Positions 1-12,535 of a stretch of 49,341 nucleotides of DNA are shown here, piece by piece. Position numbers and translations under genes: made by a program. The notes below the pieces were generated by a model, which did no database searches, was not told where the DNA came from, and saw only the letters and a program-made list of their open reading frames with translations. The stretch comes from a virus. Location of the stretch: the IMG/VR virus record IMGVR_UViG_3300010885_059862, positions 1-49,341 of that record. One strand, written 5' to 3'. Every line of letters begins with the position of its first letter. Positions within the stretch are counted from its first letter, which is position 1.

Positions 1-16
1 AGTAAAAATAAAACAT

Positions 17-340
17 ATGGCAAAGAATAAAATAACAACATGCAGTTACTTCATTAAGAGACTGAGAGATAGTGGATATGTAGCCGATAAGCTTTTTAGC
101 GAATTTGGTTTTCAAGATCCTCGTTCTTGGACTGTTATTGTTGATCCGCAGGTAGCATCTATCTTCATTACTTGTTACAACAATCATAATGATATGGGTG
201 AAGAGTACTTTGAAATGCACGATGGAGGACAGTTTATTCCAGAACGTTTCAAGATCAAGACTAGTTCTATCGAGGTCATTATTGAGTACCTGAATAAGTT
301 TGGTATTACTAATAAGTCTTCGACTTATGCAGGAGCCTGA
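17..340 (+). CDS. hypothetical protein, 107 aa
   Basis: Unknown function. A soluble-looking mixed protein with no membrane segment or recognisable motif. The ATG at 17 follows an A-rich leader without a Shine-Dalgarno sequence, as for most genes here. It is the first complete gene in the window, and its end overlaps the ATG of the next gene at 327, which suggests an operon with possible translational coupling. Confidence 0.7.
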   Translation: MAKNKITTCSYFIKRLRDSGYVADKLFSEFGFQDPRSWTVIVDPQVASIFITCYNNHNDMGEEYFEMHDGGQFIPERFKIKTSSIEVIIEYLNKFGITNKSSTYAGA

Positions 341-736: not shown

Positions 737-1486
737 ATGGGTTTATCAACAAGTTGGCCGAGTGTAACCGGAGATCGTCTTAATTTTAATGCAAAGCAGT
801 TTATAAATGATGTAGCCGCTGCTGCTGGTGACGACAATTGGGATGGATGGGTAAGAAACGAAGAAGTTGTTATTCCAGAATACCCTTTAGATCCTTCTTT
901 ATTTGCTAATAGTGGCGATCAAAGACATTCTTTAGGTAAAGCATTAAAGAGTGCTTATGATGAATTTTTACCTAGAATTAATGCTTATACAGAAGTTGTA
1001 GAAGCTGGGGGTTGTCAAATAATAAATGAATATATTTGTGATTCTGATGGCAATCCTATTATTAAAGCTTCGCCCAATTGTATGCAAGTTGCAAATACTG
1101 TAACAGCACAAACAAATAACGGAGCAATAAATGTTAATATCCTTAAGCCACAAGAAGTTGTAGATTTTGTAAATAAAGATTATCAGAATTCTGTGAAATT
1201 ACAAGCTGATAGTTTTATCAATTATATCAAAACAAATTATATAAATCAAAATTGGTTTGTAAAATTATGCGACATGAAAGAAATTAATACCTTTTATGTT
1301 CAAGCCACAGCTGCTAATAAAGACTATGTTTATTTAAAATATTATTACGATCAAAAGGATAATATTGCTAAAGGTTTAAATTTAGAATTAAACGTATTAC
1401 AATTTGATAATGACATTGTATCAAGAGGTGATATGAATAATTTTATGCTTTCTATTAAACAACAACCTTTGATATTTGATGTTTAG
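737..1486 (+). CDS. hypothetical protein, 249 aa, possibly virion-associated
   Basis: Unknown function. Soluble, acidic, rich in Asn and aromatic residues, with no signal peptide or membrane segment. It starts 8 bases after the previous stop behind an AT-only leader. It is convergent with the spike gene, and the two stop codons overlap by four bases (TTAG), leaving no room for a terminator. A structural role is only a guess from its position next to baseplate genes. Confidence 0.65.
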   Translation: MGLSTSWPSVTGDRLNFNAKQFINDVAAAAGDDNWDGWVRNEEVVIPEYPLDPSLFANSGDQRHSLGKALKSAYDEFLPRINAYTEVVEAGGCQIINEYICDSDGNPIIKASPNCMQVANTVTAQTNNGAINVNILKPQEVVDFVNKDYQNSVKLQADSFINYIKTNYINQNWFVKLCDMKEINTFYVQATAANKDYVYLKYYYDQKDNIAKGLNLELNVLQFDNDIVSRGDMNNFMLSIKQQPLIFDV

Positions 1487-3519
1487 TCGGTAACACAGTT
1501 TTCTACAGGAACTCTACCAATAACCTTGCCGGTATTTTTATCAATAATGGCATCTGCGCCATTATCATTAACGACTCTATAAGTTAAGTCTGGTGTAGGA
1601 ATTAATGAACCATCTGGATTTCTTACCGGTGTAGCAGTAACAAAGTTTCCACCATTTAAAGCATCTTCACTATCAATTCCATATTTCTGGTTGCGAACTT
1701 TGGAATACAATCCACCGCCACCGCAACCACCACCTAATGCTCTTGGGTGAGGTGAAGGCCAGCATCCAGAAGTCGGAGCTGGTGTTGGAGCAGGATTTCC
1801 AGCAACTCTTTGTGCTCCAGCTCCTGCTAAAGTTTTGTAATAACTTCCCTTAGGCACTGGTGCTTCGTGGGTATGATCACTAACTGGAAGACCATGAGCG
1901 TGAGTAAAATTAAACATCCACCCCCAGCTAACACCAGGACCAGCAGCATTTGCGCAAAATCCTAAATAAATTCCAGTAGGGATTATTTCTATAGTAAGAG
2001 CTAATAATATTAAATTATATGCTTCTGTGATTATATCTGTTATACCGGATTTAGTCATTATCAGAGTTGGTTGAAAAAGATATTTTGTAACTAAATCTAG
2101 AGAGAAATTTTCACTTTTTAATCCAAGGCCTTCTACTTCCCAGGCTGCACCATGGGTACAGAATTTAGAAGATCCATTTAAAGTAACAGGTGCTGCCATA
2201 GTAGGACAATTAATATAAGGCACTGACAAAGCTCCATCTATAGTTAAAGAACCTAACATAGCAGAGTCTCCATTAACATTAAAAGATCCCCTTACGTAAG
2301 TGTGTTTAGAATCTATACAAACACCAGTATCACCACCTTTATTGTCTGCTGCAATTAAAACATTTCCTCCACCAATAGTTGTAAGATTTTTAGAAGTAAG
2401 CGATACTTCTCCTTCAGATCCATTAATATGCACAGACCCGCCTTTGATAGCTATTTCTCCAAGAGATAATATTTCTGTACCATTATTACCTGATGTAATT
2501 TTTAAATTATTTTGAACCTGTATCATCAAATTTCCGTATGGAGGTTGAGGAGCAGGATGATACATTACTACCTTACAATTGCCTTCTGTAGAGACTCTTA
2601 ATTTGTTTTTAAGAGTTGAAGCAGGCCTTAAATTCATAGGCAAGGAATGGTGGGGTCCGGATTCTACATAAGGTTTAACCGCTGGAGGTTTTGCTGTCGG
2701 ATTACCATAAAAATGAATTTCATTATGAGCATGAATTTGAGCACTAGTCGAAACCGGTTTCATACTAGCTGTTAAAGCATTCATTTTTTCGGATAATTTG
2801 TCCATTTCCTCTTTTACTGCCTTTTCAGATGCTTGAACTTTTAAAGACATTCCTTCTTTTATACCAGCTTCACATCCTGGACCACATCCCTTACCTTCAT
2901 TTAAACCAATATTAGTTTTTACTCCCAATAAAGGTACGTAAACCTTCATGACTATTGTTCGTAATACAGCAAAGGGTCCTTGTAGATAAGGAAAATTATC
3001 TAAAAGTCCTCTTAATTTATCAAAAATAATTGTAAAATTATCACTTTTATCATCTGCTAAATGTTGTTGCGCACAATTAGGACAAACTACTTCTTCACCT
3101 TTTGTATTTTTTATGGCATCTAAAGATTTTTGATGAATTTGTTCCAAATATTCTTGCATTTGGGCCATATTAGCTTTGTCTTCTTCTGTCAATTCACCAT
3201 GATTGCGAACTGTTTCTCCTTTATTATAAAAAGCACTACCACCAGAAGTTGTTTCTTGTTTATTGTGAGCAGTTAAATGTACCTCTTCTCCAGCATTTAA
3301 ACTAAGATTGCCTACAGCATTATAAAAAATATTACCTTGAAACAATTTAATAAAAGTTTTCCAAGCATTACCCCAATAAGAAAAAGATCTGTCTTTCGGT
3401 GTTTGAGATCCATTAGGATCTATTTCTTTATCATCTACAAATTGTATGCCACTATATTTCCCGGATAAATGATGTACTTCGAATTGTTTATTTTTTGTAT
3501 AATCTATAGGCGTAGGCAT
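1483..3519 (-). CDS. baseplate central spike / cell-puncturing needle protein
   Basis: Likely needle at the tip of the contractile tail. About residues 340-470 are a Gly/Asn/Ser-rich run of short repeats (GGSVHING, GGGNVLIAADNKGG, SFNVNGD) as expected for a triple beta-helix. Near residues 535-553 lies a His cluster (HAHG, then DHTHEAP) of the HxH type that binds metal in phage spike tips. Earlier parts hold CPNC (about 146-149) and GCGPGC (about 212-217), possible metal or disulfide sites, and an Ala/Lys/Glu-rich helical stretch. A Gly/Pro/Cys-rich linker and a small C-terminal domain follow. It is 14 bases downstream of the OB-fold hub genes, whose products lack the beta-helix that T4 gp5 carries, so this protein probably supplies it. 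Exact fold unproven. Confidence 0.7.
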   Translation of the reverse strand: MPTPIDYTKNKQFEVHHLSGKYSGIQFVDDKEIDPNGSQTPKDRSFSYWGNAWKTFIKLFQGNIFYNAVGNLSLNAGEEVHLTAHNKQETTSGGSAFYNKGETVRNHGELTEEDKANMAQMQEYLEQIHQKSLDAIKNTKGEEVVCPNCAQQHLADDKSDNFTIIFDKLRGLLDNFPYLQGPFAVLRTIVMKVYVPLLGVKTNIGLNEGKGCGPGCEAGIKEGMSLKVQASEKAVKEEMDKLSEKMNALTASMKPVSTSAQIHAHNEIHFYGNPTAKPPAVKPYVESGPHHSLPMNLRPASTLKNKLRVSTEGNCKVVMYHPAPQPPYGNLMIQVQNNLKITSGNNGTEILSLGEIAIKGGSVHINGSEGEVSLTSKNLTTIGGGNVLIAADNKGGDTGVCIDSKHTYVRGSFNVNGDSAMLGSLTIDGALSVPYINCPTMAAPVTLNGSSKFCTHGAAWEVEGLGLKSENFSLDLVTKYLFQPTLIMTKSGITDIITEAYNLILLALTIEIIPTGIYLGFCANAAGPGVSWGWMFNFTHAHGLPVSDHTHEAPVPKGSYYKTLAGAGAQRVAGNPAPTPAPTSGCWPSPHPRALGGGCGGGGLYSKVRNQKYGIDSEDALNGGNFVTATPVRNPDGSLIPTPDLTYRVVNDNGADAIIDKNTGKVIGRVPVENCVTD

Positions 3520-3533
3520 ATAATATAATATAA

Positions 3534-4775
3534 TTAACCGTGAAGGGCGGATATATCTCCGGGATTGGGAACCTGAGCAAAGTAAACGGGTCTTTGAACA
3601 TCTCCTCCATTAAAAAATACCCAAACTTTAGAACCAGCATTTGGTATAGAAAAGGTCCCCACTGGAGATCCTGGCAACCCTACATTACTAGGCACACACC
3701 CAACTGCAGCTGATCTATCTGTATATACTACATTTTTAGCACCATTTAATGATGCAGCCTGAGTTAAAGAAGTTTTATTCAATAAATCATTTGAATTACT
3801 ACCGTTAGCCACTGCTACATCATTTGCTGCTTTATTCCAACCATAAGCTGCTATACCACTATTGCCAATAGTCCAGCCACCGTTTTTAGCACCTGCCACC
3901 ACTGCAAAATCTCTAGCTCTTTGTGTAAATGCTGCAGCTTGGGCATTAGGATCATAAATGTTATCACTTGTTAATCCATTTTCTCCTACAGTCATTTGAA
4001 ATATACCCTCAGACCAATGTACCGGTCCATTATTTTTATAACCTTCGTTATATGTTACATTAACTGGTATATAACCATTTACCGAAGAGTATGTACCGCC
4101 TCCCTTGCCCCCTCCGAGACCGACGTTTTCATGTAATGCTATAGCATCCATATAATTTGCCCATTGTTCAGCAGTCGTAGTAGTGCCTGGTGTAAAATAA
4201 CTAGAATCTGTTGGAGCGGATAAACCAGCAAGACCACCACTTTGAGCCGCAGCTAAATTTATATTGTGCAACTCTTGAGCAGATATAAATTGTAATGTGT
4301 TGCCTTTTGTTGCAAGTCTGCCTTGCTTGTCATAAGCAGATTCTTTATTCCAAGCAGAAGAAATACCAAGATCATTTGCTGTAGGATATGATTTATTAGC
4401 ATTATCTGGCTTAACTGCATTAGTATTCATGTCAAGAGTTGCTGTAGGTAAAGAAGGAACTGCATTACCGTTGCTTTGAAAAGTAGAACCACTATTAACA
4501 GCAGTTTTTCCAGTAGCAGAATTAAAAGTACCACTAGAACCTCCAAATACAGGAGCAGCACATTCAGCCCAAGGCAATGTCGTTTGTAATATCTCTAATA
4601 CAGACTTATCTAAATCTTCTACACCTTTAAATTTTACATTTTTTAATTTTCGATTTAAAGGTTCATAAAGAGTATTAGACAAATAAGGTATCCAAACTTG
4701 CAATCTATTTCTACCTTCTGGGTCTGGAGAACTACTAACTACTAAACCTAAATGTATATCGTAATCTGGTTCCAT
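3534..4775 (-). CDS. baseplate hub OB-fold protein with transglycosylase-like lysozyme domain
   Basis: Functional counterpart of T4 gp5. Residues 1-85 (IHLGLVVSSSPDPEGRNRLQ to LPWAECAAP) and about 340-413 (VGTFSIPNAGSKVWVFF, then RPVYFAQ) look like the two halves of one OB fold. Between them is a muralytic insert with ALHENVG and, some 40 residues on, EGIFQMT, a pattern like SLT-type transglycosylases (catalytic Glu followed by a GxFQ-type motif). Glu216 is the candidate catalytic residue. The adjacent upstream gene has nearly the same OB halves but a different insert. The enzyme would locally open peptidoglycan during tail contraction. Stop lies 14 bases from the spike gene. Domain class is from motifs only. 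Confidence 0.75.
   Translation of the reverse strand: MEPDYDIHLGLVVSSSPDPEGRNRLQVWIPYLSNTLYEPLNRKLKNVKFKGVEDLDKSVLEILQTTLPWAECAAPVFGGSSGTFNSATGKTAVNSGSTFQSNGNAVPSLPTATLDMNTNAVKPDNANKSYPTANDLGISSAWNKESAYDKQGRLATKGNTLQFISAQELHNINLAAAQSGGLAGLSAPTDSSYFTPGTTTTAEQWANYMDAIALHENVGLGGGKGGGTYSSVNGYIPVNVTYNEGYKNNGPVHWSEGIFQMTVGENGLTSDNIYDPNAQAAAFTQRARDFAVVAGAKNGGWTIGNSGIAAYGWNKAANDVAVANGSNSNDLLNKTSLTQAASLNGAKNVVYTDRSAAVGCVPSNVGLPGSPVGTFSIPNAGSKVWVFFNGGDVQRPVYFAQVPNPGDISALHG
3551..3744. repeat. direct repeat A, copy 1 (3' OB half of hub gene)
   Basis: Nearly identical over long stretches to 4795-4990. The best part covers codons for the C-terminal OB half, from just inside the stop codon to the end of the muralytic insert. 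Similarity stops abruptly at the insert boundary. Confidence 0.9.
4430..4775. repeat. direct repeat B, copy 1 (5' OB half of hub gene)
   Basis: Closely similar to 5625-5976. It encodes the N-terminal OB half and a Ser/Thr/Asn-rich linker. With repeat A it frames the unrelated insert, showing gene duplication plus domain replacement. Confidence 0.9.
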
Positions 4776-4776
4776 T

Positions 4777-5976
4777 TTAGCTTCCTGCTAATGCTTTTAC
4801 ATCTCCAGGATTTGGTGACTGAGCAAAGTAAACTGGTCTTTGAACATCACCACCCATAAAAAATACCCAAACCTTTGTACCAGCATTTGGTATAGAAAAG
4901 GTCCCCACTGGAGATCCCGGCAAACCCACATTACTAGGTACACACCCAACTGCGGCTGATCTATCCGTATATACTACATTTTTAGCACCAGAATTTGCTT
5001 TATCATCTACAACCGGAAAAGCAGATGCCATCTTACCATCATAAGGAGCTAATGTAGGCCAATTTTTTGCTATTATAGATTTACCATAATCTGTCGGTGT
5101 AACTACTGCAACGGAATCATACCTCGGATTGTTCAAAGATCCTTCTGGATTATCTGCAGTGTTGTCACTAGACCAATATCCATTACCAGCATAAGTCAAA
5201 GTATGTCCCACATAAGGTTCTCCAGTTTTTGGATCTATACCTGGTTGATGAAAACATAGCACAGTACCGGGTGTAGCGTTATTAATTAGTTTTAAATTTT
5301 CAGAACTTGCTCCAGTGCGAGAAAATTCAACTGGTTTATTCCAAACTTGTTGATTATCAATTTTAATATTTGAATATAATCCTCGTGAATCCCACGCATT
5401 TGCTCCTAATTGACTATCAATTTTATTACCTAAAGTATCCCCTCCCATTAAAGCTGATGCAACAGCAGAAGCACCAGCTTCACACCAATGACCAAAAACA
5501 CCATTTGCCCAACCATTTTTTGGTTGTCTATTAAATCCACCAGCTATTCCTAACACACCCCTATAAAGTTGAGAGGCCCCTACATTTCCAGACTCTACTG
5601 GTTTCATACCAGATGAAGTCATATTAAGAGTTGTAGTAGGTAAAAAAGGAGCTGCATTACCATTACTTTGAAAGGTTGATCCGCTATTGACAGCAGTTTG
5701 ACCTGTAGCAGAATTAAAAGCACCACTAGAACCTCCAAACAACGGAGCACCGCATTCTGCCCAAGGCAATGTTGTTTGTAATATCTCTAATATAGATAAG
5801 TCTATTTTATTTAAATCTTCCGGACTCTTGAAGCTTACATTTTTTAATTTTTGATTTAAAGGTTCATAAAGTGTGTTAGACAAATGAGGAACCCAAACCT
5901 GAATACGATTTCTGCTCTCTGGATCAGGAGAACTACTAACTACTAAGCCTAAATGTATACCTTTAATTGGCTCCAT
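4777..5976 (-). CDS. baseplate hub OB-fold protein with CHAP/NlpC-like cysteine peptidase domain
   Basis: Tandem paralogue of the downstream lysozyme-bearing hub gene, separated by one base. The N-terminal about 120 residues and C-terminal about 75 residues are almost the same as in the paralogue (OB-fold halves). The insert differs: HWCEAGASAVASALMGG has a candidate nucleophile Cys165 at the start of a helix, and YVGHTLTYAGNGYWSSDN has candidate His258 followed by polar residues, as in CHAP or NlpC/P60 amidases and endopeptidases. It probably cuts the peptide part of the cell wall while the paralogue cuts glycan. Whether both sit in one virion is unknown. Confidence 0.7.
   Translation of the reverse strand: MEPIKGIHLGLVVSSSPDPESRNRIQVWVPHLSNTLYEPLNQKLKNVSFKSPEDLNKIDLSILEILQTTLPWAECGAPLFGGSSGAFNSATGQTAVNSGSTFQSNGNAAPFLPTTTLNMTSSGMKPVESGNVGASQLYRGVLGIAGGFNRQPKNGWANGVFGHWCEAGASAVASALMGGDTLGNKIDSQLGANAWDSRGLYSNIKIDNQQVWNKPVEFSRTGASSENLKLINNATPGTVLCFHQPGIDPKTGEPYVGHTLTYAGNGYWSSDNTADNPEGSLNNPRYDSVAVVTPTDYGKSIIAKNWPTLAPYDGKMASAFPVVDDKANSGAKNVVYTDRSAAVGCVPSNVGLPGSPVGTFSIPNAGTKVWVFFMGGDVQRPVYFAQSPNPGDVKALAGS
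4795..4990. repeat. direct repeat A, copy 2
   Basis: Partner of 3551-3744; encodes the C-terminal OB half of the peptidase-bearing hub protein. Differences are scattered and mostly at third codon positions. Confidence 0.9.
5625..5976. repeat. direct repeat B, copy 2
   Basis: Partner of 4430-4775; encodes the N-terminal OB half and linker of the peptidase-bearing hub protein. It has a three-residue insertion after EDLNK relative to copy 1. Confidence 0.9.
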
Positions 5977-5981
5977 CTTTA

Positions 5982-7427
5982 TTAAGCATTAGGATTTGCT
6001 ACCACCGGAGTAGGAGTCACTGGAGCGACTTGTTCTGGTGCTGCACCTGGATTAAAAAAATTCCCTACAGAATTTGCAATATTACCTGGTATAGCAGTTA
6101 TATCAGATACTGCAGGCCCGACAGCTCCTGGTATAGCTTCTACATTAGTTTTAAAATCTGCCAAATTAGTTTTAGCTTTATTAAAATAAGGATTAGAATT
6201 AACATCCAAGAAACTAAATGGATTATCTGGATCTATATATCCAGGATTTGGTATAACATTACCATAAGCAAGATTACCAAAACCATTAGTTCCTGTATTC
6301 CCAGTTCTATACCATTGGCTACTATTTCCAGCAACGCCTTGAGAAAGAGCTATAGGAGCCAACGGACCTAATTGGCTTTCTAATCCATAATGCAAAAGAA
6401 TAGCATTAGCTATTTGAATTGCTTTAATACCAGCTCCTTTAGAAAATCCAAAATTAGTAATCAAATGACCTAAGAATGCCTCTGGATCACTATCTAATTG
6501 ATTTAAAGCTGAGAATACGTTATTAACACCTGGTATTAATCCTGCTAAAGAAATTGGATTATAAGCATAATTAAGTCCTTGAGCAGCATAGTTAACAACT
6601 GTTTGAATAGAATTTAAAGTATTAAACATCGAATCTCCAGCACCGAAAAGTTGAGAAAAAAATCCAACATCATCTAATAAACTTTGAAAAGCTCCTAATA
6701 CCGCACAAATTAAATCTAAAGGTATGCCAAGATTTTGTGTTATAAAATCATAAATGAATTGATTAAGACTATTTAAAAGACTGTTTATCAATCTAGCAAA
6801 TCTTTGCATCATGATAAGAGCGCCGTGATATATGTTATACAAAGACTGGATAAAATTTTGCACAGCTCCTTGAACTTTATAAAGAAATGTTTGTAATCCA
6901 CCAAAGGCTGCTGGTGGTAGAGAAAGATAAGATCTTGTACGAATGATGTTACAAAAATTTTCTATACTATCAACCATACCAGGATGAATATCATTTAAAA
7001 GACCTGCTATTAGTCCGTGGGTATTTTGTGGTGGTCCTGTTATAGGATTTTGAAACATATTAGATGTTAATAAAGCATCTATACCCAATAAACCTCCAGT
7101 AACTAATTCACCTTTTTGACCAGCTGGTGTTTGTTTCTGTAAGGTTTCTAATAAATGATTTTCTTTACACCATTTTACAAAATTAACATAGGTCCCTCTC
7201 GGACCTCCTGAGATAGGATAAGGATCGCCTTGATCAATTGCCCATACATGACCTAAAGAATTTTTGCCGTTTACCAACATATCCAGTCTTGCAGCATATT
7301 GATTACCATCTCCATTAGCCTTAAAAGTATCTAAAACAATTCCCTCTCCAGATGGTTTTAATCCGCTAGCTGTTTCCAATTGCTTTAAAGCGTTTTTATC
7401 TGTAATAGTTGATTGATTAGTCGCCAT
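5982..7427 (-). CDS. unknown protein of the baseplate cluster, 481 aa
   Basis: No family recognised. The N-terminal 130 residues are soluble and mixed. Residues 130-350 are long amphipathic or hydrophobic helices rich in Leu, Ile, Phe and Asn. The C-terminal 60 residues are Pro/Ala/Val-rich, probably disordered. It lies directly upstream of the two hub genes (5-base gap) and shares their strand, so a baseplate or tail-tip assembly role is likely. It could also be a protein delivered through the tail. The ATG at 7427 follows an AT-only leader with TATAAT nine bases upstream of the start codon. Confidence 0.65.
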   Translation of the reverse strand: MATNQSTITDKNALKQLETASGLKPSGEGIVLDTFKANGDGNQYAARLDMLVNGKNSLGHVWAIDQGDPYPISGGPRGTYVNFVKWCKENHLLETLQKQTPAGQKGELVTGGLLGIDALLTSNMFQNPITGPPQNTHGLIAGLLNDIHPGMVDSIENFCNIIRTRSYLSLPPAAFGGLQTFLYKVQGAVQNFIQSLYNIYHGALIMMQRFARLINSLLNSLNQFIYDFITQNLGIPLDLICAVLGAFQSLLDDVGFFSQLFGAGDSMFNTLNSIQTVVNYAAQGLNYAYNPISLAGLIPGVNNVFSALNQLDSDPEAFLGHLITNFGFSKGAGIKAIQIANAILLHYGLESQLGPLAPIALSQGVAGNSSQWYRTGNTGTNGFGNLAYGNVIPNPGYIDPDNPFSFLDVNSNPYFNKAKTNLADFKTNVEAIPGAVGPAVSDITAIPGNIANSVGNFFNPGAAPEQVAPVTPTPVVANPNA

Positions 7428-7451
7428 AATTAATATATTATATAAAAACTT

Positions 7452-8081
7452 ATGGCAAATAGCTTATTTTACCCTCCGATTGGTTTGTCTGGGTATGCAA
7501 GAGCAGGCAAAGATTCTTTATGCATTGCTTTGGTAGAAGCTTTTAAAGAAAGATATAATTTAGAAGCTAAAAGATTTTCTATAGCAGGTGATTGTATAAG
7601 AAAAGATTTAGAAAAATTAATATTTGATAAAACAAATTTATCAGTTTATACCAACAAAGATAAAGAGAAAACCATGCTTAGGCCTATGTTTGTTGAATAT
7701 GGCAGGTTGATGAGAAACACCACAAAAGGACGCTATTTTATAGAGAAATTAAGCGCAGATAAAACATTTAGAAAGAATAATATATCTATAATAACAGACA
7801 TAAGATACATAGAATATCCCAAGGATGAAGTGTGGTGGTTAAAAGATGAAATTAAAGGAACTCTTTTTTATATAGAAAGGGAAGGTTTAGAACCTGCTAA
7901 TAATTTTGAGCTTACTAATAATAAAATTATTAAATCTTTAGCAGACCAAATAATTCCCACCTCAGACTATAAAGACCTGAGAGTCTATAAAAAAGAAATC
8001 AAAAAGATAGCTTTAAATTTAGTAGATATTTATGTTACCACTTACCTACCGGACATCTCTCCGCTCTCAAGTAAGTCTTAA
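7452..8081 (+). CDS. deoxynucleoside monophosphate kinase
   Basis: P-loop kinase that would phosphorylate dNMPs to dNDPs in the cytoplasm, like T4 gp1. The P-loop GYARAGKDS (residues 14-22) has Asp in place of the usual Ser/Thr after GK, as is common in phage dNMP kinases. YGRLMRNT and ITDIRYIEYP fit the nucleotide-binding part and the strand carrying the acidic residue of the family. Length of 209 aa is near that of T4 gp1. It is a lone rightward gene in the leftward tail cluster, divergent from the 481-aa gene. Its 3' end overlaps the convergent zinc-protein gene by 47 bases. Confidence 0.75.
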   Translation: MANSLFYPPIGLSGYARAGKDSLCIALVEAFKERYNLEAKRFSIAGDCIRKDLEKLIFDKTNLSVYTNKDKEKTMLRPMFVEYGRLMRNTTKGRYFIEKLSADKTFRKNNISIITDIRYIEYPKDEVWWLKDEIKGTLFYIEREGLEPANNFELTNNKIIKSLADQIIPTSDYKDLRVYKKEIKKIALNLVDIYVTTYLPDISPLSSKS

Positions 8082-8346
8082 CAGCCATATTACATCCACA
8101 TTTACCACATCTTTCTTGTAAAAGATTAAAGAAATCACATTTTTTACAAATGTTTAATCTTTTTTGAGCTTCATCTTGTTCCACTCTTAAACTATTTCCT
8201 TGAGCTACACTTATAACGTTATTAATAATGCTACTACCCAAATTTTTAGCCATTTGAATCGGTGGTGGATAATGAACATTGTTAGAAGAAACAGTATTCC
8301 TACTTTGAGCTTCTTGTAACTTGATTTTAAGTTGCTCTTTGTTCAT
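8035..8346 (-). CDS. small zinc-binding protein, 103 aa
   Basis: The C-terminal half holds CKKC, CGKCGC and a final CPVGKW, a six-cysteine pattern that probably binds zinc. The N-terminal half is Gln/Asn-rich and looks flexible. Similar short proteins with a CGC..K..CP.GKW ending are common near structural genes of large phages, but the role is unknown to me. It starts one base after the hub gene stop and ends inside the 3' end of the dNMP kinase on the other strand. Confidence 0.65.
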   Translation of the reverse strand: MNKEQLKIKLQEAQSRNTVSSNNVHYPPPIQMAKNLGSSIINNVISVAQGNSLRVEQDEAQKRLNICKKCDFFNLLQERCGKCGCNMAVKTYLRAERCPVGKW

Positions 8347-8347
8347 A

Positions 8348-10042
8348 TTATAATTTTGAATCTAAAACTGGGAACATTTTCTTAAATGCATCTACTTTAG
8401 TTGCCACTACATCATTAAGATAAGTGTCTTGAGTAAACACATGCATAACCTTGACTATAAGCCATTGACCTAAAAATCTGTCATCGAAAGGATTATTCTC
8501 ACTAGAGGTTATTCTATCAACAAATATAAATTTTCCAGGTGTTCTAAAAGTCAATCCAGGAGATTGAAAATATAAAGACTGACTTAAAAATATAACTTCT
8601 TTCATCATCTTTAAAGCTGGTTTATTTTTTGGGAAAAATACTTGAGGTTCAAAATAAGGTGTAGTCATTAAACCAGTTTGTTTGGTTTGATTAACATTCA
8701 TCAATATTTGACCTTTATTATTATAAGCATACAAACCTTGTTTTGCTAAATTTTCTATATTTTCTGCAACTTTAGCAGCTGTATTATCTTCGTAATATAT
8801 GTTAAATTCAGATTTAGAAAAATCAAAATTATGCAATGGTCTATTGGTTATTCTCATATCATCAGAGGATACCATAGGAGCAAATTTGTATTTTTTAATA
8901 CGTGAAGCTATGCCTGATGTAAAATTTTGTATATATGTCCCAGGCATATCAGGAGCTCTAGGCATGTAAGGAGGTGTCAATTCAGAACCTAAACCATCTT
9001 CCAATATTAATTTTTCAATTTGATTTTTTTCTGCATTTTGGAAAAAATAAGAAAGAGGCAATAAATGAAATTTTTTATCTTCACTACTTCTTCCAAAATC
9101 TAAAATCAAAGGAGTTCCATCAGAACTAATACAATTTTGATAAGCATAATTTAAATCATCTAAAGCACAGGAACGAGCTGGTGAGGTATAGATAATATCA
9201 GAAGAGATACCGTCTGGGCCTATTCCAGTATCCCATTCACCAAAACTTGCTAAAGGAATAGAAGGCTTATCAATAGACTCGCCTTCTATATAACCTATTT
9301 TTAAATCTGAATTATTAGGATCACTAGTTTTTGAACCCGCGGCTTTTATTATAGACTTTATAGCCTCAGTAGCATTCATGGCTTTTTCTTTATCTGTTGT
9401 ATTTTTTTTGCCTTGATTCGGTCCATACTGAGCAGTAGACCATTGTATATTTCTTTCTTTTAAAATCTGTAATCTTTCATCTTGAAAATACAATTTACGT
9501 AATTTATTTTGAGCATTATCTGTTGGTAAATCTTCTATATCATAAACAACAAAATCATAAGACATCTCCCATAAATTTTTTGGCAATTCTGATTGAGTTG
9601 CATCATTTCCTATATTTGTAGGATTGTTTATAGGATATATTTTAACACTAATTCTATTACGACCATCATTTCTAAAAATATAAGGTGCTGGTATTTGAGG
9701 AGTATCTGATTCACCATTTACACCACTTTTTAAACTCAAAGAACCTCTTTCAAACATTTCTAAATTATTTTTTAAAATAATCCAGCCATTAGTAGGCCAA
9801 TTTACTAATGTCTCTTCTATGGCCATAGCTTCAACAAATAAGAAAGGTATAAGATGTGGTTGATATCCATCAATTTGATTATACAACCAAATTTCTATGT
9901 GATAAAATTGATCACCTATTTGTTGAATATATTTTAAATTATTGTTATTACCAGCTACAGTAGAAGTTGATTCATATGCAGCAGCTAAATTTCCACCATT
10001 TAATACTATAGGAGATAAAGATGAAAAGGGTGAATTTGCCAT
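8348..10042 (-). CDS. baseplate hub protein, gp27-like candidate
   Basis: A 564-aa virion-type protein: beta-rich, with no signal peptide or membrane segment. N-terminal residues 35-120 (YHIEIWLYN, GWIILKNN) and the later part (KFIFVDRITS, GQWLIVKVMHVFTQDTYLN) resemble hub proteins built from tube-like barrels. The statement FLGQWLIVKV followed by a strand with DVVATKVDAF fits the end of such domains. Its place between a tube-fold protein and the gp5-like genes supports the hub role, as gp27 forms the platform for gp5 in T4. It is longer than T4 gp27. Assignment is from order and general character, not from a signature. Confidence 0.55.
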   Translation of the reverse strand: MANSPFSSLSPIVLNGGNLAAAYESTSTVAGNNNNLKYIQQIGDQFYHIEIWLYNQIDGYQPHLIPFLFVEAMAIEETLVNWPTNGWIILKNNLEMFERGSLSLKSGVNGESDTPQIPAPYIFRNDGRNRISVKIYPINNPTNIGNDATQSELPKNLWEMSYDFVVYDIEDLPTDNAQNKLRKLYFQDERLQILKERNIQWSTAQYGPNQGKKNTTDKEKAMNATEAIKSIIKAAGSKTSDPNNSDLKIGYIEGESIDKPSIPLASFGEWDTGIGPDGISSDIIYTSPARSCALDDLNYAYQNCISSDGTPLILDFGRSSEDKKFHLLPLSYFFQNAEKNQIEKLILEDGLGSELTPPYMPRAPDMPGTYIQNFTSGIASRIKKYKFAPMVSSDDMRITNRPLHNFDFSKSEFNIYYEDNTAAKVAENIENLAKQGLYAYNNKGQILMNVNQTKQTGLMTTPYFEPQVFFPKNKPALKMMKEVIFLSQSLYFQSPGLTFRTPGKFIFVDRITSSENNPFDDRFLGQWLIVKVMHVFTQDTYLNDVVATKVDAFKKMFPVLDSKL

Positions 10043-10045
10043 ATA

Positions 10046-10648
10046 TTAACAAGAAGATATGTTGATATCTTTTAAAAGTTCTACATGCAATTGACTATAA
10101 GCAAATGAAATATCACAAGTTATTTCTGTTGGATCTTGATAGGAATAATTTATCTGTCCTAAGGAAGTAACAAAGGCATTAGTATATTTGAAAGAAATAA
10201 TTTTATTATCAAATTCATCTAAAGCAAAAAGAGTAAAATTTGATATATAATTGGAAAATGGATTTGTTAATCTAATATCCTTTTCTGCAACAAAACTATC
10301 AGGAGCATTTATTTCAGAAGTGCTATTTTCTGAATCATTAAATAAATTTAACCACTTCCATAAAATCCAATAATTCTGATATCCATTACCTACTAAAAAT
10401 TTAACATCTAAAGTAGGATAAGCTGTTCTAAAATTACTAGACACTTTCATAGTTTGTCCCCCAAAAGGTAAAACTATTTCTGGTATAGAAATTTTTGGTA
10501 CAGGAGAACCAAATACTGTAAATTGTATTTGATCAGCTGAATACTTGTTTTCTATAACAGTGTCATGAGAATTTTTTAAAGCATTGGGCAAATCAAGTAC
10601 CAAAAGGAACTTATCATTGCGTGATCTATTTAAAGTGGCTTGTAACAT
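10046..10648 (-). CDS. tail-tube-fold protein (baseplate tube component)
   Basis: 200 aa. The C-terminal strands (IISFKYTNAFVTSLGQINYS and a following EITCDISFAYSQLHVE) follow the pattern of gp19-type tube proteins, where a last pair of long strands closes the barrel. ALDEFDNKIISFKYTNAF is typical of the position before it. The gene lies between terminase and the hub gene, with 3-base gaps each side. It may be a second tube initiator (gp48/gp54-like) or the adaptor between hub and tube. Confidence 0.55.
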   Translation of the reverse strand: MLQATLNRSRNDKFLLVLDLPNALKNSHDTVIENKYSADQIQFTVFGSPVPKISIPEIVLPFGGQTMKVSSNFRTAYPTLDVKFLVGNGYQNYWILWKWLNLFNDSENSTSEINAPDSFVAEKDIRLTNPFSNYISNFTLFALDEFDNKIISFKYTNAFVTSLGQINYSYQDPTEITCDISFAYSQLHVELLKDINISSC

Positions 10649-10651
10649 AAA

Positions 10652-12535
10652 TTAAAATAATACAATGGGTCTGTATTCTTCTATAGAAGACTTATCCTCT
10701 TGAGGAGGATTTTTAAAATTATCTTTTTCTGTACCTCCTTGAGTGTGCAACCAAACCCATAGATTTTTAGCTTCATCTGCTAATACAGCATTATTACCAG
10801 CTCCTTTGACTGGTACATAACTTGGTAATACCGGAGCACTTCTTTTTTCTAAAGTATAGGTACCACCTATTAATAAAGGGCTCTTAGAAATAAGATCAGA
10901 ATTATCAACAAGAGCTTGTATTCTACTAGGTCTTCCTTGATCATCTAATTCAGATAATAAAAAATATTTAGAAACTAAAGAAGGATCTAAAATAAAGAGA
11001 CCCCAGATTAAACCAAATACTCTATCATCCAAATCTTTATCACTTCTTTTACTAAAGGTAAAATTTGGTAAGCGAACAAAATTATAAAGTTCTAATATAG
11101 TATCTAAATCATTAATTTTTACCACCTTTAAACCATTAGACCAATATCTAAAATTGATGATGCCTTTATATCTCGTATTCGTATGGTTATGAACTCCTAA
11201 TCTCTTTCCAGTATCATAATGTTTACTATTACCCTCAAATTGATAAGAGACTATATTTTCATATTGATGTGTTTGATGAAGTACGTCTAATACTTGCTGT
11301 CCGTTATTGTTATTCTCAATAAGAATAGGAGGTCTTCCCCAATCAGTTAAAACACTCATCAACTTCGTTCCGAAATGAAAGGGACTCATAGTATTAGTGC
11401 TATACACTGCTACTTGTTTGATGTCTTGCAAATTAGTAACGTCTAAAATTTGAGCTACTGTATTTGATCTTCCTATACCCTCACCTACGTCAACACCTAT
11501 AATATAAAGATTACCAGGTTTAGGTAATTCAAATATTTTATAGAAACCATTATCATTAATAAGAACAGGTTCTTTGGCTTGTGCTTTTAATTCATCTAAA
11601 TAGCTAGTATCAACAACACTTTTACCAGGAAGAATAAATGCATTGCCATATTCTTGTTCAAAGTCTTCTTCAGATCCCAAAGCAGCTATAGCACTTTTTT
11701 TCCATTCTTCATCTCTTCCAGGGACATCCCACCAATCAACTCTTTCTAAATGCCATTCACTTGATTTTTTTTGAGATTCTTCATATAGTTCATAAAATTT
11801 ATTATCAGTTCCATTAGGAGTACTGATAGCTACTATTTGAGATTTTTTTGAAGAAGAAATAATAGGAATAGCTGACTTCCAAAGTTCCTTCATAAGTTCT
11901 GAAGGACAATGTGCCATCTCATCAATAATAAGAAGATTACTTGTACTACCACGAGGACCAGCAGCTGATGTTGTACTAATGGTGATTGCTGAATCGTTAG
12001 ATAATAGGAATCCGTCCTTTCTCCAGGATTTCATACTTGGTTTGAGATAAATTGGCAATTGCTCAAATGCCATACGAATTCTACCAAAGATTTCTTTTGC
12101 TGTAGATTCTTTATTAGCTATAATAGTAACTCTTTTATCAGATTGGAAACAAACTAACCAAAGAGCATATATAGTTATACAAGTAGTTTTACCCACCTGA
12201 CGAGAAGCTAATACAATATTGAATCTGTTAGCTTTAAAAGACTTTAATAATCTTTTCTGAAATTTATGAAGCTCTATTCTTTTCTTTCCTTCGTCTAGAG
12301 TAGATATATAAAAATGATGTTCTGCAAAATGCAAAATACTTTTAATACAGAGCTTAAGCTCTGATTGCATATCCTCCGTCCATTTAAACGTAGCATTCTG
12401 TCTTAAAATATTTTCATTACCTTGAAAATATTTGCCGTCTGCTAATATATCAGCATTTTCTATTTCCTCTAAGGGTATAGAATTAAGATCTACTTCGTCT
12501 TCATACTCATCTTCGTCTTTTGATTTTCTTGACAT
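10652..12535 (-). CDS. terminase large subunit, ATPase and nuclease
   Basis: DNA packaging motor, equivalent to T4 gp17. The ATPase domain has Walker A SRQVGKTT (residues 111-118) and Walker B LLIIDE (Asp205, Glu206), followed by a coupling motif ISTPNG near 238-242. The RNase H-like nuclease domain has GVDVGEG (Asp349), ILIENNNNG (Glu407) and a late DDRVFGL acidic pair. Length of 627 aa is normal. The first 25 residues are very acidic. It sits among baseplate genes rather than beside a small terminase gene, which is not visible in the window. Its start is 19 bases from a divergent small gene. Confidence 0.95.
   Translation of the reverse strand: MSRKSKDEDEYEDEVDLNSIPLEEIENADILADGKYFQGNENILRQNATFKWTEDMQSELKLCIKSILHFAEHHFYISTLDEGKKRIELHKFQKRLLKSFKANRFNIVLASRQVGKTTCITIYALWLVCFQSDKRVTIIANKESTAKEIFGRIRMAFEQLPIYLKPSMKSWRKDGFLLSNDSAITISTTSAAGPRGSTSNLLIIDEMAHCPSELMKELWKSAIPIISSSKKSQIVAISTPNGTDNKFYELYEESQKKSSEWHLERVDWWDVPGRDEEWKKSAIAALGSEEDFEQEYGNAFILPGKSVVDTSYLDELKAQAKEPVLINDNGFYKIFELPKPGNLYIIGVDVGEGIGRSNTVAQILDVTNLQDIKQVAVYSTNTMSPFHFGTKLMSVLTDWGRPPILIENNNNGQQVLDVLHQTHQYENIVSYQFEGNSKHYDTGKRLGVHNHTNTRYKGIINFRYWSNGLKVVKINDLDTILELYNFVRLPNFTFSKRSDKDLDDRVFGLIWGLFILDPSLVSKYFLLSELDDQGRPSRIQALVDNSDLISKSPLLIGGTYTLEKRSAPVLPSYVPVKGAGNNAVLADEAKNLWVWLHTQGGTEKDNFKNPPQEDKSSIEEYRPIVLF

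Follow-up and report, generated by a model that had tools for sequence, protein, structure and literature searches.

Tandem phage tail-tip genes with different putative wall-cutting domains inserted into a split OB fold

The window analysed here is the whole 49,341-nt stretch of IMG/VR record IMGVR_UViG_3300010885_059862 (positions 1-49,341), a metagenomic fragment. Two neighbouring minus-strand ORFs, separated by 1 base, encode putative split-OB hub proteins: hub1 (4777..5976, 399 aa), with a Cys-His (NlpC/CHAP-like) insert, and hub2 (3534..4775, 413 aa), with an SLT-like insert. A sequence-only reading had proposed that these are adjacent duplicated genes with alike ends and unrelated centres, and the ORFs, repeats and alignments agree. 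The N ends are covered by direct repeats of 222 nt (4406-4627/5598-5819, 79% identity) and 192 nt (4587-4778/5788-5979, 78%) and the C ends by one of 193 nt (3552-3744/4798-4990, 90%), lengths and identities that are far above chance expectation. The proteins share aa 1 to ~125 and their last ~65 residues; with 82% identity at the N end and 90% at the C end, the shared ends stand, while the earlier description of them as 'near-identical' was slightly generous. Their centres align at background level only, revealing no homology between the inserts. In hub1, the OB N-half (aa 1-82, 5731..5976, defined by profile and alignment) is followed by the insert, a Cys-His domain with its linkers (aa ~126-333, 4978..5601), and by the OB C-half (aa 334-399, 4777..4977, PF04717 positions 41-70). 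In hub2, the corresponding parts, also on the minus strand, are the OB N-half (aa 1-79, 4539..4775, defined by profile, block pLDDT 69-92 in the model described below), the insert, an SLT-like domain with low-confidence linkers (aa ~123-348, 3732..4409), and the OB C-half (aa 349-413, 3534..3731, PF04717 positions 41-70).

Neither hub matched PHROGs. Searching 50,697 phage records by tblastn with the hubs and their inserts returned the OB C-half of Alishewanella phages and otherwise chance matches, and a search of genome contigs gave two short matches only, hence no prophage series. Scans of viral contigs with the hub alignments collected 69 full-length related proteins, and this hub group belongs mostly to freshwater tailed phages.

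The genes lie in a conserved order: terminase, tube, a ~560-aa protein, a tape-measure-like protein, hub(s) and spike. In the window, all on the minus strand, these are the terminase large subunit (10652..12535), the tail tube protein (10046..10648; phrog_45, 3e-18), a conserved 564-aa protein (8348..10042), the tape-measure-like protein (5982..7427; phrog_305, 3e-5), a conserved neighbour upstream of the hubs, and the spike (1483..3519, 678 aa). The 564-aa protein would be a gp27-like hub by position only; it has no PDB profile match and its gp27 identity was not borne out. The homologue of the spike in ten relatives (L040, L041, L044, L045, L047, L048, L051, L052, L055 and L067) is the C-terminal part of a 1070-1250-aa chain, joined on behind the split OB (for example L040 aa 595-1133, E 7e-73), and the spike is presumably a beta-helix. 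It also carries the His-rich motifs FTHAHG and DHTHE near residues 540-551, which recall metal-binding spike tips but lie ~130 residues short of the C-terminus. Two further genes were observed in this region. A plus-strand P-loop kinase-like gene (7452-8081, GYARAGKDSLC) is embedded in the minus-strand tail operon and occupies an equal position in L001, L002, L014 and L095, and a small four-cysteine protein (8035-8346, CKKCDFFN..CGKCGC), conserved in relatives, is encoded between the 564-aa and tape-measure-like genes.

The same hub pair is present in L001, a separate assembled contig. In trees of the N ends, hub1 of the window phage groups with hub1 of L001 (support 0.77) and hub2 with hub2 (0.87), which places the duplication before the split between the two phages. 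Between them, the SLT-like insert of hub2 is kept (87%), whereas hub1 holds the Cys-His domain in the window and a Tlde1-like domain in L001; the earlier reading described the Cys-His centre of hub1 but missed its replacement in the sister phage. In a third sister phage, L002, from the same metagenome as L001, the hub1 gene (6001-6414) is interrupted by the contig end; its DNA is ~97% identical to that of L001 up to about nt 300, then 62% in the linker, possibly announcing yet another insert. A second, independent hub pair, L013/L014, was found on another branch and in two metagenomes; tandem duplication arose at least twice. Values of dN/dS of 0.04-0.19 in the OB halves and the insert indicate that both copies are under purifying selection. 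The two window copies also differ less from each other at synonymous sites (dS 0.53-0.57) than orthologues do (0.81-1.5), a sign of gene conversion, and they are partly homogenised. A hint of conversion in the C-end gene tree is weakly supported (0.50), and the conversion reading rests on dS instead.

Each virion could use only one of the two copies, or one could be an alternative or evolutionary spare, the two products forming separate, competing homotrimers or serving different hosts. Most relatives indeed have a single hub gene, two hubs being found in one of the nine long contigs searched (that of L014), and the insert of hub1 varies between close phages while that of hub2 is kept. Purifying selection on both copies and on both OB halves, together with retention of both since before the split between the window phage and L001, weighs in the opposite direction, and we give this possibility slightly less than an even chance.

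Neither insert has a direct Pfam match, and PDB sequence searches with both gave chance matches only. The hub1 insert matches Cys-His inserts of other hubs, among them those of L012, L082 and L092, with E 1.4e-7 and 25.5 bits; the best of 500 shuffles scored 6.7 bits. Its Cys165 (codon 5482..5484, minus strand), the putative nucleophile, and His258 (5203..5205, minus strand), the putative catalytic His, align with the invariant Cys and His of these related inserts, and the Cys precedes the His, which sits in a GHxxTYxGN-like motif; the NlpC/CHAP label is given on this motif order, and L108, a relative with an Amidase_5/CHAP match, showed no clear profile link to the hub1 insert. Homologues of the hub2 insert occur in L001 hub2, L095 and L121, and Glu216 (4128..4130, minus strand), the putative catalytic Glu, is invariant in the four homologous inserts. 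The hub2 insert also matches the SLT-type inserts of other hubs, themselves weak SLT matches (hhalign E 6e-7), Glu216 pairing with the SLT Glu. The SLT-like and Cys-His identities, as well as the three residues singled out from the sequence beforehand, are thus supported by profiles and conserved motifs at the level of remote homology, and the two inserts would cut peptidoglycan.

This arrangement extends well beyond the window. The OB halves are more than 160 residues apart in 51 of the 69 proteins, with a large insert always in the same place, and 39-155 residues apart in the other 18, in which no enzyme is evident. Best E values for the domains in this slot reach 8e-15 for PF00959, 3e-9 for PF18013, 5e-7 for PF13472, 3e-5 for PF05382, 2e-4 for PF10908 and ~6e-4 for SLT. 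The cargo comprises GH24 phage lysozyme (L034, L056, L051, L055), Phage_lysozyme2 (L015), Amidase_5/CHAP (L108), weakly matched SLT (L065, L059, L098, L112), M15 (L059, L056) and GH75-like (L038) domains, a Tlde1 domain below cut-off (L001 hub1) and a GDSL domain just below it (L014 hub2); RlpA/3D-like and some M15-like assignments were made from motifs only. Several slots contain two domains, as in L056 and L015, where an M15-like domain accompanies a lysozyme. In the GDSL/SGNH insert of L014 hub2 (7193-8269), the motif order is GTND - DGVH - GDSN, and in-silico permutation of the sequence lifted its score with Lipase_GDSL_2 to 42.7 bits, up from 33.5, so this domain looks circularly permuted.

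The inserted domains could mainly bind wall or glycan, or be structural decoration, rather than act as enzymes, since they include RlpA/3D-like and GDSL folds, for which peptidoglycan cleavage is not a given, and since divergence keeps the window inserts out of reach of Pfam. We consider this improbable, the catalytic Glu, Cys and His being among the conserved positions and recognised lysozymes being present in several relatives.

Comparison of close relatives suggests how the cargo changes. Protein identities of N end, C end and insert are 99%, 93% and 20% for L038/L063, 93%, 100% and 31% for L048/L055, and 100%, 98% and 45% for L051/L055. At the DNA level, identity in these swap pairs goes from 90-98% to ~40% and back to 90-97%, with sharp breakpoints at the linkers. 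The L051/L055 pair also conserves the spacer that separates two inserted domains (83-97%). Near-identical scaffolds bearing different enzymes, together with such breakpoints, identify the loop as a recombinational cassette slot, and the DNA pattern is what cassette exchange by recombination in the conserved flanks would give. The sequence-only reading had recognised the insertion, which holds, but had missed that the site serves as a general swap slot throughout a large group of phages.

The earlier proposal that the hub ends are halves of one OB fold, with the lytic domain inserted within it, is sustained by sequence profiles and by a structure model. The window proteins score 24.1 and 30.7 bits with PF04717 (curated cut-off 23.8), through the C-half only (profile 41-70). 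In many relatives PF04717 matches in two pieces that enclose the insert, profile positions 1-32 close to the N-terminus and 41-75 close to the C-terminus. In an insert-free 171-aa protein of Alishewanella phage Slicko01 (L003), which resembles the hubs in the OB alone and serves as an insert-free comparison and not as a close relative, the match is unbroken (positions 1-71). On VgrG, too, the family profile aligns as two segments, here separated by ~20 residues. When the OB halves were joined in silico, PF04717 scores were 34.8 and 29.8 bits, a slight rise still short of a full-length match, which is neutral evidence; the missing full-length match perhaps comes from a helical loop of the N half itself.

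A first structure model, from four sequences, was discarded (pLDDT 29). The AlphaFold model of hub2, the one hub modelled, was obtained from a 69-row alignment (pTM 0.37). Its confidence is good for aa 1-80 and ~375-413 (block pLDDT 69-94), moderate to good for residues 160-220 and low for the two linkers (93-160 and 324-366), which are predicted to be disordered. VIA-align placed 79 residues between positions 3 and 403 of the model on a continuous stretch, 3..82, of P1 gp5 (9vzk_q, Z 10.2). Next come contractile-system spikes, those of A-1(L) (Z 9.3), PVC, eCIS and VgrG, then T4 gp5 (1wth_A, chain residues 6..128, Z 7.9), and unrelated OB proteins rank lower (IF-1, for example, Z 7.2). Two-piece profile matches and model together position the insert between OB strand 3 (LPWAE) and strand 4 (KVWVFF). 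The hub ends are thus two halves of one gp5/VgrG-type OB fold with the enzyme as an insertion within it, according to the model for hub2 and by homology for hub1.

In two relatives the OB halves are found on two adjacent genes, 5001-5387 and 5395-6027 in L099, 4992-5303 and 5312-6121 in L062. Each half-gene has an ATG of its own, preceded by a TAA stop, and this would be a natural fission within the insert loop. The barrel may thus be assembled from two chains, unless a sequencing error accounts for the split in each case.

Could the ends instead be two separate small domains flanking an ordinary lysin? The halves are ~270 residues apart, they are on different genes in L062 and L099, and Foldseek found no match to the hub2 model at E<=0.001, the last because the OB is small and interrupted. 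Against this, the two halves together fit a single continuous OB of P1 gp5, VgrG and T4 gp5 in VIA-align, PF04717 covers them in order, and the matched halves are only ~20 residues apart in VgrG. The structure prediction proposed earlier as a check, run for hub2, did not show the ends as separate domains, and we regard this alternative as very improbable. Least credible of all is that the duplication is an assembly artefact of a metagenomic fragment, given the same pair with a different hub1 insert in L001 and the independent pair L013/L014 from two metagenomes.

The single interrupted OB fold can be compared with known tail tips. As in T4 gp5, the hubs would provide an OB collar with a muralytic domain at the tube end. 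In T4 gp5, however, the OB is intact and the lysozyme comes after it, ahead of a fused beta-helix (PMC3004832), whereas the domain of the window hubs sits between the OB halves, and their ORFs stop right after the OB, with the spike as a separate gene and no beta-helix in the same chain. P1 gp5 is devoid of lysozyme (PMC9024508); it and the VgrG and eCIS spikes (PF04717) are closest in OB structure and sequence profile, but their OB has no enzyme interruption. The diffocin tail tip pairs an NlpC/P60 peptidase with a glycan-cutting enzyme, and its spike OB is interrupted by a short hairpin (residues 24-60 and 81-108; PMC11329794). The window hubs share the interruption and would share the combination, but both diffocin enzymes belong to a single gene and are fused behind a gp27-like hub instead of being placed in the OB loop. 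In the freshwater myophage A-1(L), a cyanophage, the hub gp15 carries lysozyme, endoglucanase and peptidase domains (PMC10966104); these are in the gp27-like hub protein, and the OB spike of this phage (8kea_D) has none. In the literature searched, with subscription papers mostly outside its coverage, we did not find a lytic domain inside a gp5/VgrG-type OB.

The best overall explanation, which we consider probable, is that these proteins are subunits of a tail-tip OB collar with an exchangeable wall-cutting domain in the strand 3-4 loop. The lack of a Foldseek match, the pTM of 0.37, the remoteness of the profile and motif matches that identify the window enzymes, and the relatives whose slot contains no enzyme count against it. 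Each hub gene would encode a subunit of a gp5/VgrG-type collar, expected to be a trimer, capping the tube, and the loop would hold a peptidoglycan-cleaving domain outside the collar on flexible linkers. By analogy with T4 gp5 (PMC3004832), diffocin (PMC11329794) and A-1(L) (PMC10966104), contraction would carry the collar and the separate spike (1483-3519) through the outer layers, and wall digestion by the tethered domains would open the way for the tube to the inner membrane. Because the loop tolerates almost any domain, enzymes could be swapped there by recombination, the conserved OB halves and linkers acting as homology arms. In the window lineage, hub2 would keep the SLT-like glycan cutter and hub1 would hold the replaceable activity, Cys-His here and Tlde1-like in the sister phage. 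Two tandem copies with two different enzymes suggest a modular, mix-and-match drill bit. More tentatively, and at less than even odds in our view, the strand 3-4 loop may be a general cargo slot, open to lysin exchange via the OB halves and even to OB fission, with the window paralogues co-assembling as mixed trimers in which a glycan cutter stays fixed and a second activity can be replaced.

The new element is the swap slot itself. With it, contractile-tail tips would gain a second enzyme site, often reshuffled by evolution and not described in the literature searched. The fit between the wall-cutting chemistry of a phage and the peptidoglycan of its host becomes testable in this way, and studies of tail-like particles gain a natural and tolerant site for insertions. 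If true, paired paralogues would break the homotrimer assumption for the tip collar.
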